NCBI GenBank assembly: GCA_030627585.1
Contig: DAOURU010000001.1
Location: forward strand, 1-17,227
Direction: 5' to 3'
DNA: 17,227 nt
Source of the DNA: Bacillota bacterium
GTDB lineage: Bacteria; Bacillota; DSM-12270; Thermacetogeniales; Thermacetogeniaceae
The translations under genes were made by a program, and so were the position numbers. Every line of letters starts with the position of its first letter. Positions within the stretch are counted from its first letter, which is position 1. Of the stretch, positions 4,023 to 17,188 are shown piece after piece. Under the pieces are notes generated by a model that was not told the origin of the DNA, made no database searches, and saw nothing but the letters and a program-made list of their open reading frames with translations.

Positions 4023-4243
4023 GACAGGGCGGGTTGGTTGGAGTGAACCTTTGGTTGGGGCCGTAGGGCGGCTCAAAGAACCTTTTTACCGGATGGTGCA
4101 GGCATTATCATGAAACCTCTCATCCTCAGGATCTCAAGCAAGCAAATCAAAAACCGGGATGCTCCGGCCGGGGCTCAAGTGAGGAGGAATGAGGTAAAAA
4201 TACCGGAAAAAATTATCGAGGGAAAAGGAAAAAAATCTTTTTG
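4023..4243 (+). other. Intergenic region before the KaiC-like operon
   Basis: No confident gene. A 33-codon frame ending in TGA at 4111-4113 reads plausibly like a protein tail (LVGAVGRLKEPFYRMVQALS) and might be another gene remnant, but I cannot assign it. A weak composite stem (CTTTG pairing with CAAAG around GCCG/CGGC, about 4049-4077) followed by TTTTT at 4083-4087 could act as a poor terminator for the methyltransferase transcript. A 74-codon frame from an ATG at 4110 has no ribosome site and overlaps the next gene, so it is not called. Confidence 0.4.
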
Positions 4244-4250
4244 TGTCGAA
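4244..4250 (+). promoter_or_regulatory. Candidate Spo0A box (TGTCGAA)
   Basis: A perfect match to the Spo0A recognition heptamer TGTCGAA lies 50 bases before the first gene of the KaiC-like operon. It occupies the -35 position of the candidate promoter at 4245-4273. This is the geometry known for Spo0A-activated sigma-A promoters such as spoIIG in Bacillus subtilis. Two or so such heptamers are expected by chance in a window of this size counting both strands, so position rather than presence is the argument. Confidence 0.4.
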
Positions 4251-4299: not shown

Positions 4300-5688
4300 T
4301 TGAAGAAAATTCGCACCGGAATTACCGGTTTTGATGAGCTTTTTTACGGCGGAATCCTTGCAGGAAACACAATTCTTGTGGAAGGAATTCCCGGCGCGGG
4401 CAAAACAACCTTCGGGGTTGAATTTATCTACAGGGGGGTCCAAGATTATGAAGAGCCGGGTATTGTTTTAACCTTTGAGCAGTTTCCGGCTTCCCTTTAC
4501 CGGGATGCTTTAAATTTCGGTTGGGATCTGCAGACTCTGGAAAGACAAAACAAGCTCCGGGTGATTTGTACTTCACCGGAGGTTGTGCTGCTGCCGGAAT
4601 CAAATATTTTAGAAGAAGCCGTCAACGAAATCAGGGCGCGCCGGGTGCTGGTTGACAGCATGTCTCACTTTCGCCAGGTTATTGACAACCCCCTCGAGCT
4701 GCGCCAGGCGGTTTATGCTTTTTGCAACGGGCTGCGCCGCCTCGGTTTAACCTCTTTGCTCGTGAAGGAACAGGAGCAGGAAGAGGAGGATTTTTACAGT
4801 TTCGAGGAGTTTCTGGTAGATGTTGTCGTACGCCTCCGGTACGGAGCGAACGGCGGATTGCAGCGCCAGCGTACCGTCGAAATTATCAAAAGCCGGGGGC
4901 AGCCTCATTTATCGGGGAGACACAGCTTTAAAATCAAGGAAGCGGGGATGCAGGTTTTTTCCCTGCGGCCTCTTCTCCTGGAACCGGATGAGGGCCGCTC
5001 TCCGAGTTTTTTGTTAAAGACGGGGATCAAGGGTTTGGACGAACTCTTACGGGGTGGCCTTCCGCGGGGTGTAAGTATTGTTGTCGCGGGAGAGGCGGGC
5101 ACGGGGAAAACGGTTTTAGGCTTGGAATATTTAGTCCGGGGGGCGCTCCAGCAGCAGGAAAGAGGTCTTTTTGTCTCCCTGGAAGAAGCCCCTCAGAAGA
5201 TCCATGCCCACGCGGCCGCTTTTGGGTGGGATCTGGCGGGCCTGGCGCAGGAGGGAATGATTCAGGTAATCTTCACGCCTCTGGTGGAGGTTGATTTTGA
5301 CGAGCTGATTACCCGGCTGGGCGCCGTGATCCGGGAAAACCGGATCGTGCGGGTTGTTTTTGATGCTTTGCCCGCCTTAATTGCCCGTGTACGTGACATG
5401 TTTGTGCTCCGGGAAAAACTCTTCTACCTGACGACCTATCTCAATAATCTGGGATGCACAACCCTGTTTCTTTACCCGACCGGGATTGGAATTCCCAACG
5501 AGCAGCTGGATATTGTTCAATCTCTCGTCCAGGGGAGTATTCTCCTCAAGTCGAGTTTGTTTCATAACAGGAGGCTGCGATACCTGGAGCTTTATAAGTT
5601 GCGGGGGGTAAGCCATATTACCGGCAATCATCTCATGGAAATTACGAAAACCGGGATTCAGGTCTTCCCCCGGGCAGGAGGTTGGTAG
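4300..5688 (+). CDS. Double-domain KaiC-like ATPase
   Basis: A 462-residue RecA-superfamily ATPase with two tandem KaiC domains, the CI/CII layout. Domain 1 (about 4-225) has Walker A GIPGAGKT at 29-36 and Walker B VLVDS ending Asp119. Domain 2 (about 236-457) has Walker A GEAGTGKT at 264-271 and Walker B with Asp355. The catalytic glutamate pair is EE in domain 2 (295-296) but EQ in domain 1 (60-61). Each domain ends with the usual family block (KSRGQPHLSGRHSFKI, KLRGVSHITGNHLMEI). By eye alignment the Ser/Thr phosphosites of cyanobacterial KaiC fall on Gln407 and Ser408, so clock-type autophosphorylation is unlikely in the same form. An in-frame TAA at 4285-4287 leaves TTG 4300 as the start, with GGGAGG at 4291-4296. 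It leads a five-gene run. Cyanobacterial clock function should not be inferred. Confidence 0.9.
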   Translation: MKKIRTGITGFDELFYGGILAGNTILVEGIPGAGKTTFGVEFIYRGVQDYEEPGIVLTFEQFPASLYRDALNFGWDLQTLERQNKLRVICTSPEVVLLPESNILEEAVNEIRARRVLVDSMSHFRQVIDNPLELRQAVYAFCNGLRRLGLTSLLVKEQEQEEEDFYSFEEFLVDVVVRLRYGANGGLQRQRTVEIIKSRGQPHLSGRHSFKIKEAGMQVFSLRPLLLEPDEGRSPSFLLKTGIKGLDELLRGGLPRGVSIVVAGEAGTGKTVLGLEYLVRGALQQQERGLFVSLEEAPQKIHAHAAAFGWDLAGLAQEGMIQVIFTPLVEVDFDELITRLGAVIRENRIVRVVFDALPALIARVRDMFVLREKLFYLTTYLNNLGCTTLFLYPTGIGIPNEQLDIVQSLVQGSILLKSSLFHNRRLRYLELYKLRGVSHITGNHLMEITKTGIQVFPRAGGW

Positions 5689-5690
5689 GA

Positions 5691-6407
5691 TTGAAAGCAA
5701 GGGCCTATTTTGGCGTGGAAGGACTCGACAGGATTATTTCCCAGGGTGTGAGTTACGGTTCCCAAATTATGGTCGACGGTGATACCGGGGTGGGAAAAAC
5801 GGTTTTAGCGGGGGAATTTATTAAAGAAGGGCTCCGGTGCGGGGATGTCTGCATTTACGTGGCCTGCGACGAGCCACCGGCGGTGATGCGCTACCACCTG
5901 GGCACTTTCAGGGTAGGGACGCGGGCATACGAGGAGGCCGGACGCTTAATTTTTGTGGATGCCTACGAAGAAGAGGCCAGTGTTGAGAAATTTCATATTG
6001 CCGACCAGCATAATCTGGATAAATATTTTACCCTGGAAAAGGAGCTTTTGAAGCGCTTTGCCGGACAGCGCATCCGACTCATTGTGGACAGCCTGAGCAC
6101 TCTGTTCACTCCCTTTGAGCCTGCGGAAATCCTGGAATTTCACCGCAGCCGTTTAAAATACCTCCGGAAAAACGGGATTCTCACCCTTGATATCTTTGTG
6201 GACGGGGTGCTTGGAGACCGGGTGATGATGGTGGCCAGCCATTTCTACAACGTCATTTTAAAGATGAAGTTTGGCAGCTCCGCAACGCGGCCGGTCCGGA
6301 TTTTGCAGGTGGGGAAAGTCCGGAGCGGAAAATTCAGTTCTACTCCCTATATGTTCGGCATTAGTCCCACCTTTGGAATTTTAGTCGCGACAGAGTTGGA
6401 GGTGTAG
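5691..6407 (+). CDS. Single-domain KaiC-like ATPase
   Basis: A 238-residue RecA-superfamily ATPase with one KaiC domain. Walker A GDTGVGKT lies at residues 30-37 and Walker B IVDS ends at Asp133. The position usually holding two glutamates reads DE (60-61), so one catalytic Glu is kept. The C-terminal block ILQVGKVRSGKFSSTPYMF (204-222) corresponds to the KMRGxxH segment of other family members but lacks the His. I chose the TTG at 5691, two bases after the previous stop, because AGGAGG at 5676-5681 has the right spacing. A TTG at 5682 would touch that site. Pairing a double- with a single-domain KaiC suggests hetero-oligomers or two stages of a switch; this is inference. Confidence 0.88.
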   Translation: MKARAYFGVEGLDRIISQGVSYGSQIMVDGDTGVGKTVLAGEFIKEGLRCGDVCIYVACDEPPAVMRYHLGTFRVGTRAYEEAGRLIFVDAYEEEASVEKFHIADQHNLDKYFTLEKELLKRFAGQRIRLIVDSLSTLFTPFEPAEILEFHRSRLKYLRKNGILTLDIFVDGVLGDRVMMVASHFYNVILKMKFGSSATRPVRILQVGKVRSGKFSSTPYMFGISPTFGILVATELEV

Positions 6408-6412
6408 GTGAA

Positions 6413-7432
6413 ATGGATGAAAACGTGTCAGTTGTTCACAAGATTCTGAACTACCTTTATTTAACATTAAGCAAAACCATTCCCGCAATCCCTTTCAGCG
6501 GACAGTACTGGCTGGAAGAAGTCACGCGCGGGGTAGGCGCCTGCGTCATGGATGAATACGGGAAAGAATTGGAGCTATCCAGCCGGCGCCCCGCAGACAT
6601 CTGCAGGGCTTATTTGGATATTCTCGACCGCGAGGGGTTCCTGGAGGCAAGCGCTTACCGGCTGGAAGAAGAAGGGGAAAACGTCCTGGTAAACTTGACC
6701 CGGAGTCGCTGCATTTATCTGGATTTCTGCCGGGGCGCAGAAAAAGAAGAGCTTTTCTTTTACTGTCCCCGCCTGGGGGCGTTCCAGGCCTGCCTCCAGC
6801 GGGTGCTGGGGAGCGAGTATTCTAGGGAAGTCACGATTAATGCGGAGGCAGACATGTGCCGTGGCCGGGTTTCCCCCACCAGGCGCCTGAAAACAGAGAT
6901 CGTCACCCGCGAAGGGGATCTTTTAAAAATTGCAGGAGAAAGGGCAATCCTTTTGCCCAAGGAAACTTACGCCTCTATTTTTGTCGCGCTTAAAGAATAC
7001 GCGCCCCATATTATTAAAACCATCCTCTTTGATGCCGGCTACCTTTCGGCCCTGACGGTCGCCGCGCAGGCAAAAACCTTCTACAATACACCCTTAGAAG
7101 CGCTGGAGGCGCTTTTTGAGGAAGTCAAGAATTGCGGCCTCGCAAGGGTGGAACTGGTCTCACTGGAACCGGGGGCAGGGCGTGCGGTAATCAGGTGCTA
7201 TAATTCCTTCCAGGTGGCAACAGTCAAGAAGTACGGCTGGTTTTACCGGACACCGCGCGTTGTCTGCGACCTTCTTCGGGGAATGTTCTCCGCCTATTTG
7301 ACTGTTCTCCTTGAGCGGAAGATCCTATGCGAAGAAATGCGGTGCGAGGCGCTGGAAGGAGATTACTGCGAATTCCATGCTTTACCTGATGAAAGTGGAG
7401 CCCAGGCAGCGGGGAGTGAGCCTCTTGTCTGA
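6413..7432 (+). CDS. V4R (4-vinyl reductase-type) sensor protein with two V4R-like domains
   Basis: A 339-residue soluble protein. The C-terminal half (about 175-325) is a recognisable V4R domain, ending in VCDLLRGMFSAYLTVLLER, EEMRCEALEGDYCEF with Cys311 and Cys319. The N-terminal half (about 30-155) looks like a diverged second copy, including Cys100, Cys106, Cys118, Cys127 and a closing ADMC (Cys149). V4R domains are predicted small-molecule (hydrocarbon or pyrrole-type) binding domains and occur in regulators and in BchJ-like proteins; the ligand here is unknown. The cysteine group could bind zinc or an Fe-S cluster. The ATG at 6413 has GGAGGTG at 6399-6405, and the gene starts 5 bases after the KaiC-like gene, so it is very probably cotranscribed and works with it. 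A direct reductase role is unlikely. Confidence 0.8.
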   Translation: MDENVSVVHKILNYLYLTLSKTIPAIPFSGQYWLEEVTRGVGACVMDEYGKELELSSRRPADICRAYLDILDREGFLEASAYRLEEEGENVLVNLTRSRCIYLDFCRGAEKEELFFYCPRLGAFQACLQRVLGSEYSREVTINAEADMCRGRVSPTRRLKTEIVTREGDLLKIAGERAILLPKETYASIFVALKEYAPHIIKTILFDAGYLSALTVAAQAKTFYNTPLEALEALFEEVKNCGLARVELVSLEPGAGRAVIRCYNSFQVATVKKYGWFYRTPRVVCDLLRGMFSAYLTVLLERKILCEEMRCEALEGDYCEFHALPDESGAQAAGSEPLV

Positions 7433-7694
7433 CCAGCACCAGCATGTCCTGGAAAACGGGGGTGTGCGCGAGAGTATTGTTCGGATTGAACTCCTGACAT
7501 TTTTTCAAGCCAACCCTCATACCAGAGATACCGCTGCAGGGTTGGCGCGGCGTCTGCACCGCCCGCTTGAGGATGTTGCTGCCGCTGCGGCTGCCCTTGC
7601 CAGAATCGGGATTTTAGATCAAAACGGGAGCGGTCCTTATGTTGTTTACCGGCTGCGGCACGGAGAACTGATCAGAGCTTATTTTGAGAATTAA
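7425..7694 (+). CDS. Small winged-helix DNA-binding-like protein
   Basis: An 89-residue protein with a winged-helix fold pattern: a first helix (SIVRIELLTFFQANP, residues 17-31), a helix-turn-helix (DTAAGLARRLHRPLEDVAAA, 35-54), a third helix running into IGILDQNG (61-68) and a wing strand YVVYRL. Such modules bind DNA or act as protein contacts; there is no second domain. I chose TTG 7425, which overlaps the V4R stop by 8 bases and has GGGGAG at 7411-7416. A GTG at 7416 or ATG at 7389 in the same frame would lengthen it by 3 or 12 residues but lacks well-spaced sites. The tight overlap implies translational coupling with the V4R gene. It may be the DNA-binding output or an adaptor between ATPases and kinase; this is not shown by sequence. 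Confidence 0.7.
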   Translation: MSDQHQHVLENGGVRESIVRIELLTFFQANPHTRDTAAGLARRLHRPLEDVAAAAAALARIGILDQNGSGPYVVYRLRHGELIRAYFEN

Positions 7695-7722
7695 CGGGAA
7701 AATTTCGAAGGAGGGGCCGTCC

Positions 7723-8802
7723 TTGCAACAGCAAAAGAAAGAAGCGGGAAAGAAGGGAGCGCCGGAACCGACGCTCCAGCAGGTTTTGAATGGTTTTCCT
7801 GCAGGTGTTATGATCATTGACAGGTCAGAAAGAATTATCGGGTTTAACCGTTTTTTTGAGGAAGCGACAGGGCTTTCCGAGCAGAATGTCCGGGGGCGGC
7901 ATTTCCGGGAACTCTTCGGAAAAAAGGGGTTTCCGGAAGATCACCCTTTATTATTAACCCTAACCACCGGGAAGGAATTTAGCAGGATTGCTCCGGAGAA
8001 GTTCCTTCCCTTTTTCTCCCCCTGTTCTGCGTATATCAGCACTCACGTTTTAAGGGGCGCAAGCGGGGAGAAGGCAGGGGCGATGGCCGTGCTCTGGGAT
8101 GCCAGGCGCCAGCAGGAATTGGAGCAAGCAGTAATCCGGGCCGAGCGCCTTGCGATTATGGGCCAGTTGGCTGCGGGGGCGGTTCATGAAATCAGGAATC
8201 CTCTCACGGCAGTGGCGGGTTTTCTTCAGATACTGAAAAAGGAGTTGGAAGGAACGCCCCGCGTTGAGTATGTGGATATTATGCTGGATGCCCTCGAGCG
8301 CGTAAATTCTATTATCGGGGGCTTTCTCCGCCTGGCAAAGCCCGGTCTTCCCCAGCGGAAGCCGTATCATTTAAGGGATTTGATTGAAAACGTACTCAAG
8401 TTATGGGAAAGTGAGGGGGCGCGCCGGGGGATTGCAGTCAATGCCTCTTTTGCACCGGGCCTGCCGCCGGTTTTGCTGGACGAAGAGCAGTTTCAACAGG
8501 TGCTGTTGAATATTTTTAATAACGCGCTTGAGGCGATGCCGGATGGCGGCGAAATCAAGCTTGCGGTTGAGATTGACCGGGAGGACGACCTGATCCGGAT
8601 TACAATCCAGGATACAGGGCCGGGGATTCCGGAAGCGGTTCAAGCTCAGGTTTTTGAGCCCTTCTTTACAACCAAGGAAACGGGGACCGGTTTAGGGCTT
8701 TATATTTCACGGGCGATTATTCAAAATCACGGTGGAGAGATTGTAATTGAAAATAACCCCGAGCGGGGTTGCAAAGTTACCATCATCCTTCCTCAGGCAT
8801 AG
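7723..8802 (+). CDS. Cytoplasmic PAS-domain sensor histidine kinase, sporulation-kinase-like
   Basis: A 359-residue histidine kinase with no membrane segments. A PAS domain (about 17-127) precedes a HisKA domain whose phospho-acceptor is His155 in HEIRNPLTAVAGFLQIL. This H-box wording is typical of the Bacillus sporulation kinases KinB/KinE and their relatives. The ATPase domain is complete: N-box NIFNNALEAM (263-272), G1 DTGPGIP (297-303), F-box FEPFFTTK (311-318), G2 GTGLGL (321-326). I chose TTG 7723 because AAGGAGGGG (7708-7716) precedes it. It is the last gene of the KaiC-like run and has no response regulator beside it, so it is an orphan. Clostridial orphan kinases of this kind can phosphorylate Spo0A directly; that role here is inference. 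Confidence 0.9.
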   Translation: MQQQKKEAGKKGAPEPTLQQVLNGFPAGVMIIDRSERIIGFNRFFEEATGLSEQNVRGRHFRELFGKKGFPEDHPLLLTLTTGKEFSRIAPEKFLPFFSPCSAYISTHVLRGASGEKAGAMAVLWDARRQQELEQAVIRAERLAIMGQLAAGAVHEIRNPLTAVAGFLQILKKELEGTPRVEYVDIMLDALERVNSIIGGFLRLAKPGLPQRKPYHLRDLIENVLKLWESEGARRGIAVNASFAPGLPPVLLDEEQFQQVLLNIFNNALEAMPDGGEIKLAVEIDREDDLIRITIQDTGPGIPEAVQAQVFEPFFTTKETGTGLGLYISRAIIQNHGGEIVIENNPERGCKVTIILPQA

Positions 8803-16000: not shown

Positions 16001-16033
16001 TGGACTTTTGGGGTATTTTGGGGGTAGGTGGAA

Positions 16034-16422
16034 ATGAGCTTCACGGGAGTGCCTTTACTGGTCGTTGATGATCACGCGGGTGTGCGCTTCCTTTTAAAAG
16101 AAGTCCTCGAGCAAGACGGCTACCGGGTTCGGGTTTTGGCTTACGGCAAGGATGTCCTTTCCTCCTTCTCGACTGGAATCTGCCGGACTGGCGGGGGTGG
16201 GAGGTGCTTGTGGAACTGCAAAAGCTTCAATTCCGCATCCCGGTGATCCTGCTCACGGGGTGGAGCGATGGGGAGCTGTTCCGGCGTGCCCTGGAAAAAG
16301 GGGTCGTAGGTTACCTTGTGAAACCTTTCGATCTTAATGATCTGAGGAAATTAATTCAGCAGGCGCTGGCGGTTTCACCCTATTTTCATCAGGGGGAAGC
16401 AAAACAGACTTCTTCGACATAA
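16034..16422 (+). pseudogene. Spo0F-like response regulator receiver, split by an out-of-frame deletion
   Basis: From ATG 16034 the frame encodes the first half of a CheY-fold receiver: PLLVVDDHAGVRFLLKEVLE with the acidic pair Asp12-Asp13, then DGYRVRVLAYGKDV. It then runs into nonsense and stops at 16244-16246. The rest is intact in another frame: FLLLDWNLPDWRGWEVL with the phospho-acceptor Asp codon at 16171, LLTG (Thr at 16255) and VKPFDLNDLRKLI (Lys at 16321), ending TAA at 16420-16422. Compared with B. subtilis Spo0F, about 28 bases are missing around 16150-16165, at a 16-base pyrimidine tract. The single-domain form and the pyrG-to-fba location fit Spo0F. As written no intact receiver can be made. 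A GTG at 16204 could not restore the Asp. An assembly error is the main alternative. Confidence 0.75.
16413..16419 (-). promoter_or_regulatory. Candidate Spo0A box, inverse orientation
   Basis: TTCGACA on the + strand is TGTCGAA on the - strand. It lies 4 bases before the -35 of the candidate promoter at 16424-16452. It also overlaps the last codons and stop of the broken receiver gene, and the heptamer is expected about twice by chance in this window, so the support is weak. Confidence 0.2.
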
Positions 16423-16519: not shown

Positions 16520-17188
16520 ATGCTCGTTGCGACAACTACCGCACTCGCGCTTCGTTGTCCGAACTGTGGGAAAATACAATACCATGCCCTGTCTCTTTTT
16601 TCTTTTTCCGTTCAGAAAACAATTCGCTTCACTTGTACTTGCGGGGCGCCCCTTCTTTTAATCAGCACCAAAGATCGCAGGGTTTTTTACTTCCAACTGG
16701 AATGTTTAATGTGCGAAAGAAGGCACCTTTTGCAGTATTTTTTAAAGGATATCTGGTCCTCTCAGGTGCTCAGCCTTACCTGTGAGGAGACCGGTCTGGA
16801 GGTTGGTTTTGTCGGCCCCCGGGAGCAGGTAAAAAAGTGCATCGCCAACCAGGAGCGTTCCCTCAGGGAAATGGCTGAGGACCTGGGTTTCGCGGATTAT
16901 TTTACCAATCCCGAGATTATGTATGAAATCCTGGATGCTTTGCATAAAATTGCGGAGGAAGGAAATCTTACTTGCCAGTGTGGAAATCCCCAGATTGAAG
17001 TGGAAATTTTTGCGGAGCGCGTTGAACTGAAATGCCCAAGCTGCGGTGCCCTGGGGGTGCTTGATGCGGAATCCCGGGCGGATTTGCAGACAATCCAAAA
17101 CAGCTGGGAAATCGAGCTCAAGCCGGGGGGGCTGCAGCTGCTCGGGCTTGGAAAGGTAAGGCGAAGCCGCAGGCGTTCTAAGAAATAG
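16520..17188 (+). CDS. Cysteine-rich zinc-ribbon protein (CpXC-like), function unknown
   Basis: A 222-residue soluble protein with several metal-binding cysteine pairs. The N-terminal part has CPNC at 13-16 followed by CTC (39-41), a layout like the CpXC domain, then CLMC (62-65) and Cys88. A C-terminal ribbon has CQC (152-154) and CPSC (172-175). The middle (about 105-147) is helical. The end is very basic (GKVRRSRRRSKK), which could bind nucleic acid. No catalytic motif is visible. ATG 16520 is preceded by GAGGAGG at 16504-16510. It sits between the Spo0F-like gene and a probable fba start. Its own promoter candidate lies upstream. I do not recognise a named family beyond the CpXC resemblance, and a role in RNA or protein binding is only a guess. 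Confidence 0.7.
   Translation: MLVATTTALALRCPNCGKIQYHALSLFSFSVQKTIRFTCTCGAPLLLISTKDRRVFYFQLECLMCERRHLLQYFLKDIWSSQVLSLTCEETGLEVGFVGPREQVKKCIANQERSLREMAEDLGFADYFTNPEIMYEILDALHKIAEEGNLTCQCGNPQIEVEIFAERVELKCPSCGALGVLDAESRADLQTIQNSWEIELKPGGLQLLGLGKVRRSRRRSKK

Follow-up and report, generated by a model that had tools for sequence, protein, structure and literature searches.

In the 2017 work of Makarova, Galperin and Koonin, archaeal KaiC is said to have been linked to sensors and helix-turn-helix (HTH) proteins. Here, a five-gene bacterial locus is analysed that encodes a double-domain KaiC-family ATPase (KK), a single-domain KaiC-family ATPase (K1), a V4R protein, a small winged-helix protein (WH) and a histidine kinase (HK). 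It lies in the window, meaning the whole 17,227-base stretch studied, which is a single contig (C151) of a 1.57 Mb, 340-contig genome that is 76% complete. The 2017 work presented KaiC-like ATPases as signal-transduction hubs of archaea and, as in the present locus, they are tied there to two-component parts, through KaiC-REC fusions (via PMC5847659; this and the other PMC sources are cited from the portions available). Unlike the archaeal hubs, the genes described here form a fixed five-gene bacterial unit with a V4R protein and an orphan PAS kinase, complete in 21 of 25 named loci. The favoured explanation, given slightly less than an even chance, is that this conserved module is a V4R/KaiC switch gating the orphan kinase, and that it provides an input to the sporulation or transition-state decision of Spo0A-bearing anaerobic Clostridia.

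The module recalls parts of four further systems. Like the cyanobacterial KaiABC clock, whose output also runs through a histidine kinase, it has a double-domain KaiC-family protein, but KK is CI-CI-like and lacks the Ser431/Thr432 autophosphorylation pair of KaiC CII. The orphan PAS sporulation kinases of Desulfotomaculum acetoxidans and Bacillus are, like HK, orphan PAS-HisKA proteins of Spo0A-bearing hosts, often with TxGFQL-type residues; no conserved gene neighbourhood is reported for them in the available portion of PMC6136694, whereas HK is fixed to KaiC, V4R and WH genes. The V4R domains of PoxR, MopR and DmpR carry pocket residues Trp128 and Tyr170 at positions that are invariant cysteines in the module protein (PMC7264223), which in addition has no AAA+ or DNA-binding domain and has a second, N-terminal domain of similar fold. 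MsvR of methanogens shares a V4R domain with three cysteines at identical spacing as well as a winged helix (PMC3729527), but here the winged helix is a separate gene, and KaiC ATPases and a kinase are added. A search of the open-licence literature found no title or abstract describing this five-gene set, in agreement with an earlier note on this DNA, made from the letters alone, whose author knew of no described system with these parts.

The features of the module in the window are:

4226..4250, + strand, AGGA-N-TGTCGAA element with SigH-like -35/-10, 49 nucleotides (nt) before the KK start
4300..5688, + strand, KK, double-domain KaiC-family ATPase (two PF06745 stretches; PDB alignments)
5691..6407, + strand, K1, single-domain KaiC-family ATPase (PF06745, 94.9 bits)
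6413..7432, + strand, V4R protein with two tandem V4R/TRAPP-fold domains (alignment A1, structure model, fold matches)
7425..7694, + strand, WH, 89-residue winged-helix protein (alignment A2, structure model, fold search, gene contexts)
7723..8802, + strand, HK, soluble PAS-HisKA-HATPase histidine kinase, orphan (family scans; specificity residues TAGFQI)

A conserved five-gene unit

The tight packing given in the earlier note, with gaps of 2, 5 and 28 bases and one 8-base overlap, is borne out, and all five genes lie on the + strand; TTG is the start codon of four of them. Scanning the whole window for Rfam families and tRNAs returned no match. The V4R protein had no match at E 1e-5 in plasmid and phage collections, so there is no sign of plasmid or phage carriage.

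A search with the V4R protein returned 49 proteins at E <0.001, the window's own included. Of these, 23 were aligned with the window protein, and the alignment picked out 25 loci in named genomes. The order KK-K1-V4R-WH-HK is complete in 21 of these. Two of the others (L044 and L049) are cut by contig ends, while the remaining two are counter-examples: in L025 HK is missing and KK is split over two frames, whereas L041 holds the V4R gene alone, with a complete module in L043 of the same metagenome-assembled genome. Hosts include Syntrophaceticus schinkii (Thermoanaerobacterales Family III), Pelotomaculum propionicicum (Desulfotomaculaceae), Desulfofundulus thermosubterraneus, Desulfocucumis palustris and Sporotomaculum syntrophicum; S. 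schinkii and P. propionicicum are known from anaerobic digestion and syntrophy. In 14 of the 23 loci that have both genes, the K1 frame overlaps the V4R frame by 4 bases when first starts are taken mechanically. Wherever both flanks are in the available sequence, the module copies of the window's family are flanked by a methyltransferase gene and argS, and comparison of the flanks of 15 loci, 13 of them from the Desulfotomaculaceae-type group, found no sixth gene family common to more than four loci.

Co-occurrence across the phylum follows the same lines. Of 398 genomes sampled, 14 have a K1 match of more than 300 bits, adjoining the V4R gene in every case; two weaker K1 matches, of 60 and 87 bits, belong to longer frames, and the genomes concerned have no V4R match. 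G013 is the sole genome with a strong V4R match and no K1, and its V4R piece begins at a contig end. WH exceeds 95 bits in 15 genomes, namely 13 of the 14 K1 genomes, G013 and G012, and reaches 76 bits in the fourteenth K1 genome (G053). Weaker V4R-profile matches in G246, G387, G141 and G289 were set aside as non-members, with no KaiC match in the surrounding DNA retrieved; the three that were scanned (G246, G289 and G141) are sigma-54-type or XylR_N/V4R regulators.

All five families also occur together in one other, distant family (G094 and G129, loci L073 and L074), in the order HK-WH-KK-K1-V4R. The kinase of this variant is of the PAS hybrid type and includes receiver and Hpt domains, and the V4R protein, beside the KaiC genes, is fused to an NMT1_2 domain resembling periplasmic binding proteins. 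The five genes certainly form a conserved unit, in a few lineages of Clostridia only. The earlier note had named lack of conservation beyond close relatives as grounds for giving up its proposal, and the complete, ordered loci dispose of that objection; the unit is not spread across Clostridia, though, being present in about 15 of the 398 phylum genomes sampled.

Predicted sensor, switch and winged-helix protein

The second half of the window's V4R protein scores 29.7 bits against Pfam PF02830, just under the cut-off of 31. Precomputed annotation places PF02830 in 47 of the 49 V4R-search proteins, and the structure model gives fold matches to V4R domains. Domain 1 has four conserved cysteines. 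Domain 2 has a predicted Zn(Cys3Glu)-type site (C285 in 49/49, E308 in 48/48, C311 in 48/48 and C319 in 49/49) that corresponds to the Cys-Glu-Cys-Cys site of the PoxR/MopR/DmpR type when aligned to DmpR and MopR, together with two extra invariant cysteines, Cys262 (49/49) and Cys306 (48/48). It is these two that align with Trp128 and Tyr170, and the aromatic-ligand pocket of the PoxR/MopR/DmpR type is absent. Because the Zn(Cys3Glu)-type site appears complete and six more cysteines are highly conserved, a role as a redox or small-molecule sensor, as put forward in the earlier note, is plausible. The V4R-NMT1_2 fusion of the rearranged variant supports a ligand-sensing role. Full-length proteins with both V4R and NMT1_2 domains number five. 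A P-Rex1 match to residues 11-130 in the PDB profile search (E 0.0024) was taken as chance. A stand-alone N-terminal V4R-like domain of 161 residues with the same four cysteines was seen beside argS in G117 (L072, 7297-7782), a genome with WH and a short HisKA protein elsewhere and no KaiC match in the DNA retrieved.

Both KaiC-family proteins exceed the PF06745 cut-off and have Walker A and B motifs and the catalytic acidic pair. The alignment of 30 KK sequences counts one locus twice and takes in six divergent relatives that stand in other contexts. Domain 1 retains its Walker A motif, its catalytic Glu and its Walker B Asp in 30/30, and domain 2 retains the Walker A Lys in 27/30. K1 shows no variation across 21 aligned sequences at Walker A, at the Walker B Asp or at the DE pair of YVACDEP. 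ATP-driven switching by KK and K1 is plausible because these residues are kept. A circadian clock function of KK, on the other hand, appears unlikely. By PDB alignment both KK domains are nearer to KaiC CI than to CII (for the second domain, E 2.5e-34 for CI versus 1.9e-15 for CII of the same chain), and the 258 bits of KK against the circ_KaiC equivalog (TIGR02655) fall well under its cut-off of 546. In an alignment made by eye, the position of Ser431 is Gln, His or Glu in 29/30 sequences and that of Thr432 is Ser in 25/30. KaiB has a match in 4 of 18 module genomes, over the cut-off in two, and each is partial (about 42 of 82 positions or fewer), so that no full-length KaiB match was obtained in the 18. 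Of the proposal in the earlier note that the ATPases act as an ATP-driven switch or timer, the switch keeps its plausibility, whereas the timer finds no support in a KK without a CII-type phosphosite pair and in genomes with no full-length KaiB match.

For WH, the PDB profile search gave weak winged-helix matches only; the structure model and fold search returned a winged helix. Homologues lie beside KaiC genes with GAF, HD-GYP or LuxR-type proteins in the distant Firmicutes G122 and G086, G038 has a receiver-WH-KK arrangement, and in G127 a homologue adjoins a GAF/HD-GYP/LuxR-type protein with no KaiC match in the surrounding DNA retrieved. The family, seen in such company at loci L088, L090, L086 and L087, may be a general KaiC partner in Firmicutes.

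One genome, G012, keeps part of the module. Its locus has no KK, K1 or V4R gene, V4R and K1 are also absent from the genome as searched, and WH and HK remain behind an AGGA..TGTCGAAT element. There is no N between the upstream methyltransferase gene and WH, whereas the kinase gene contains an assembly gap, and a reading of the split kinase as a frameshift was rejected on that account. If real, this natural deletion suggests that WH-HK is the output half. The earlier note had assigned the output to the winged-helix protein and the kinase together, and as regards the kinase the proposal fits this one genome, in which WH and HK are kept and the other three genes have gone from the locus.

Upstream element and orphan kinase

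The element upstream of KK in the window combines a -35 AGGA and a -10 GAA (followed by A here) across an 18-nt spacer, its 3' end being a perfect TGTCGAA, the core Spo0A box (PMC3485338). It is the only match in the window, where 0.01 would be expected. The SigH motif, AGGA/GAAT separated by 17-18 nt, was mapped in the acetogen Sporomusa by authors who also found it in Thermacetogenium phaeum (PMC12456013), a species described as spore-forming (PMC3551663).

Many KK upstream regions hold AGGA(A/T), 17-18 nt and GAA, often as TGTCGAA. The form AGGAW-N11-15-TGTCGAA, drawn up after these related loci had been seen, is present in 11/23 KK upstream regions versus 1/349 controls and 0/23 reversed upstream regions, and a looser YGTNGAA form in 16/23 versus 3/349. 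The controls are the upstream regions of other open frames longer than 200 residues at the same loci, with mechanically called frames and one duplicate locus dropped. Since the bare SigH-like form is common among the controls, the distinctive part is the GTCGAA end. A looser AGGAW..GAAW pattern finds an element just before spo0A in 9 of the 10 genomes with upstream sequence there (G388 is without one, G094 has no upstream sequence, and spo0A start codons were not fixed), and all nine end in CGTCGAA at -10, which the pattern does not demand. Across whole genomes, the strict pattern is more frequent than the same pattern reversed in 6/6 cases tried (G006, 32 versus 5; G001, 35 versus 4; G002, 35 versus 5; G016, 22 versus 3; G005, 17 versus 2; G388, 16 versus 4), by six- to nine-fold in the first three. 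Among ten frames scanned behind G006 elements, ftsE, an mreB-type gene, folC and trmO pass curated cut-offs, while pilB-, opp-, chemotaxis-like and other genes fall below them. Judged by sequence, most module copies appear to carry a SigH/Spo0A-box-like element; the rearranged variant has no AGGA/GAA element within 273 bases before its kinase. Genes for PAS/sigma-54 activators were seen near V4R or KK in Desulfotomaculaceae-type loci (L041, at 7982; L036; L038, by similarity only), and one such gene follows the same promoter element.

Orphan status and a PAS domain are the signature by which Davidson et al. recognised candidate sporulation kinases, with specificity residues TAGFQL in KinA, TSGFQI in KinC and mostly TTGFQ plus L, M or F in D. 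acetoxidans (PMC6136694). The window HK has an N-terminal PAS domain (PF00989, over the cut-off), no receiver domain in family scans, and specificity residues TAGFQI. The code [ST][ATSV]G[FY]Q[LIM], itself drawn up after these sequences, from related loci, had been seen, fits 13/28 module kinases versus 0/11 other HisKA kinases of G006 and G002. No receiver-like frame was found in the DNA examined around 22 of the 25 named loci, and at the other three (L035, L045 and L047) the frames lie on the opposite strand, each with its own kinase.

In G006, a single contig of 2,939,057 bases, the module kinase is the only one of six HisKA kinases with no receiver gene within a 1.5 kb flank. The 17 HATPase matches of this genome otherwise read as chemotaxis-like, GyrB-like (by place only), MutL-like and small anti-sigma-like proteins, kinases that have a receiver close by, and a single small AgrC-like membrane protein that has none. 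In G002 a receiver was seen for four of the six other kinases. Of the 18 module genomes tested for Spo0A, all but G009 contain it (17/18). SPOB_a matches in 16/18 genomes include what read as AgrC-like kinases and were not used as evidence for Spo0B.

A possible partner of HK lies further along the window, outside the module:

16028..16422, + strand, single receiver domain in two overlapping frames (broken in the assembly), third gene after pyrG

Its pieces score 24.6 (under) and 34.5 (over) against the Response_reg cut-off of 30.2. The relative in G002 is intact and that in G001 has Asp changed to Asn in the acid pair. By position the gene is Spo0F-like and possibly a candidate partner of HK, and Spo0F may be decaying in the window's genus. 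Beside it, at 16520-17188, lies a gene for a 222-residue protein with several CxxC pairs and no Pfam family over cut-off among the matches listed; in the window's family it reads as conserved between alr and genes resembling fructose-bisphosphate aldolase and transaldolase.

A candidate input to the Spo0A pathway

A transition-state or sporulation role is proposed because of the promoter, orphan-kinase and host evidence, all of it indirect. Expression of the module would come with entry into the transition state. The V4R protein would sense a redox-related or small-molecule signal through its Zn site, the two extra pocket cysteines and the four-cysteine N-terminal domain, and would act on the K1 and KK ATPases, which would change assembly state with ATP turnover. 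WH, which may also bind DNA, would couple the KaiC switch to the orphan PAS kinase, and the kinase would hand phosphate to the Spo0A pathway, via Spo0F where present or straight to Spo0A. Both the signal at the V4R protein and the communication between KaiC proteins, WH and kinase are steps that we infer. A more ambitious form of this proposal is possible and distinctly tentative: a two-domain thiol/metal V4R sensor would set an ATP-driven KaiC switch, and this switch, read out by a dedicated WH adaptor, would directly gate a sporulation kinase. Such a system would be a new class of Spo0A input in anaerobic spore formers, subject to feedback from SigH and Spo0A, and would give bacteria a counterpart to the KaiC hubs proposed for archaea.

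A number of observations weigh against a sporulation role. Seven of the 23 KK upstream regions are without the YGTNGAA form; bare AGGA-17/18-GAA occurs in 18/23 but also in 49/349 controls, and the textbook GAAT version, in 7/23 versus 32/349, does not favour SigH. As the promoter pattern and the kinase code were both formed on related loci already seen, p-values are inflated. Moreover, the SigH regulon of such acetogens is expanded, partly metabolic and covers Wood-Ljungdahl genes (PMC12456013), so that the promoter alone is no proof of a sporulation role, and folC and trmO, behind the element in G006, have no evident sporulation link. Of the module kinases, 15/28 are off the specificity code, two because the pattern found no H-box, and in G002 two further kinases have no receiver seen, one with fewer than 450 bases upstream and one a fragment. 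Spo0A is also present in 11/11 other genomes, and its presence does not discriminate. The Spo0F candidate was found only in the window's genus and is degenerate in two of three members: a receiver-only gene at the pyrG/fba/tal position was not found in G006, G015, G018, G007 or G016, and none of the four single receivers looked at elsewhere in G006 is a clear Spo0F (three stand among flagellar or chemotaxis-like genes, and L234 lies elsewhere). A simple Spo0F route, once the favourite, has lost weight on these grounds, and in the five genomes where the gene was not found at that position the kinase, if it serves Spo0A, would have to act directly or via another receiver.

In the main rival account the module is the same, but its kinase feeds a regulator outside sporulation, such as one for motility, type IV pili or energy metabolism, and the SigH-like promoter belongs to the expanded metabolic regulon of SigH. 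In T. phaeum and relatives, Wood-Ljungdahl genes are preceded by SigH motifs (PMC12456013); the G006 element also precedes folC, trmO, ftsE, mreB-type, pilB-, opp- and chemotaxis-like genes, no conserved Spo0F was found, and the specificity residues vary. Set against these points are the lack of a receiver gene as a constant neighbour (with receiver-like frames at just 3/25 named loci), the orphan and PAS signature of the kinase, and a spo0A gene with the same promoter architecture, and this alternative is a serious one that is nevertheless rather unlikely. The V4R protein and WH could instead form a redox or ligand switch on transcription, a split-gene counterpart of archaeal MsvR to which the KaiC proteins and kinase are accessories. 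The 26 and 8 spacing of C285, C311 and C319 is that of C206, C232 and C240 in MaMsvR (PMC3729527), the WH model is a winged helix, and there is a weak MsvR profile match (E 4.8e-4), its family score of 19.9 lying far below the cut-off of 220. However, the G012 locus retains WH together with HK after the loss of V4R and both KaiC genes, and in other Firmicutes WH homologues adjoin KaiC genes without V4R, which leaves the MsvR-type switch improbable.

Two further accounts carry little weight. A KaiC-based timer or clock would draw on the conserved active sites of KK and K1, but the CI-like second domain, the Gln, His or Glu at the Ser431 position (despite a frequent Ser at that of Thr432) and the partial KaiB matches make it very improbable. 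That the genes are chance neighbours, or an ordinary two-component kinase beside unrelated genes, has a negligible chance of being right and is refuted by conservation: by the constant order and co-occurrence, the 4-base K1/V4R frame overlaps and the rearranged but complete set in a distant family.

The V4R/KaiC switch on an orphan kinase stays the favoured explanation, and the AGGA..TGTCGAA elements point to a SigH/Spo0A-box-like regulon worth mapping. The module ties together two questions, namely what triggers sporulation in anaerobic Clostridia and what role KaiC-family ATPases have apart from clocks, and both can be tested in one set of five small soluble proteins.

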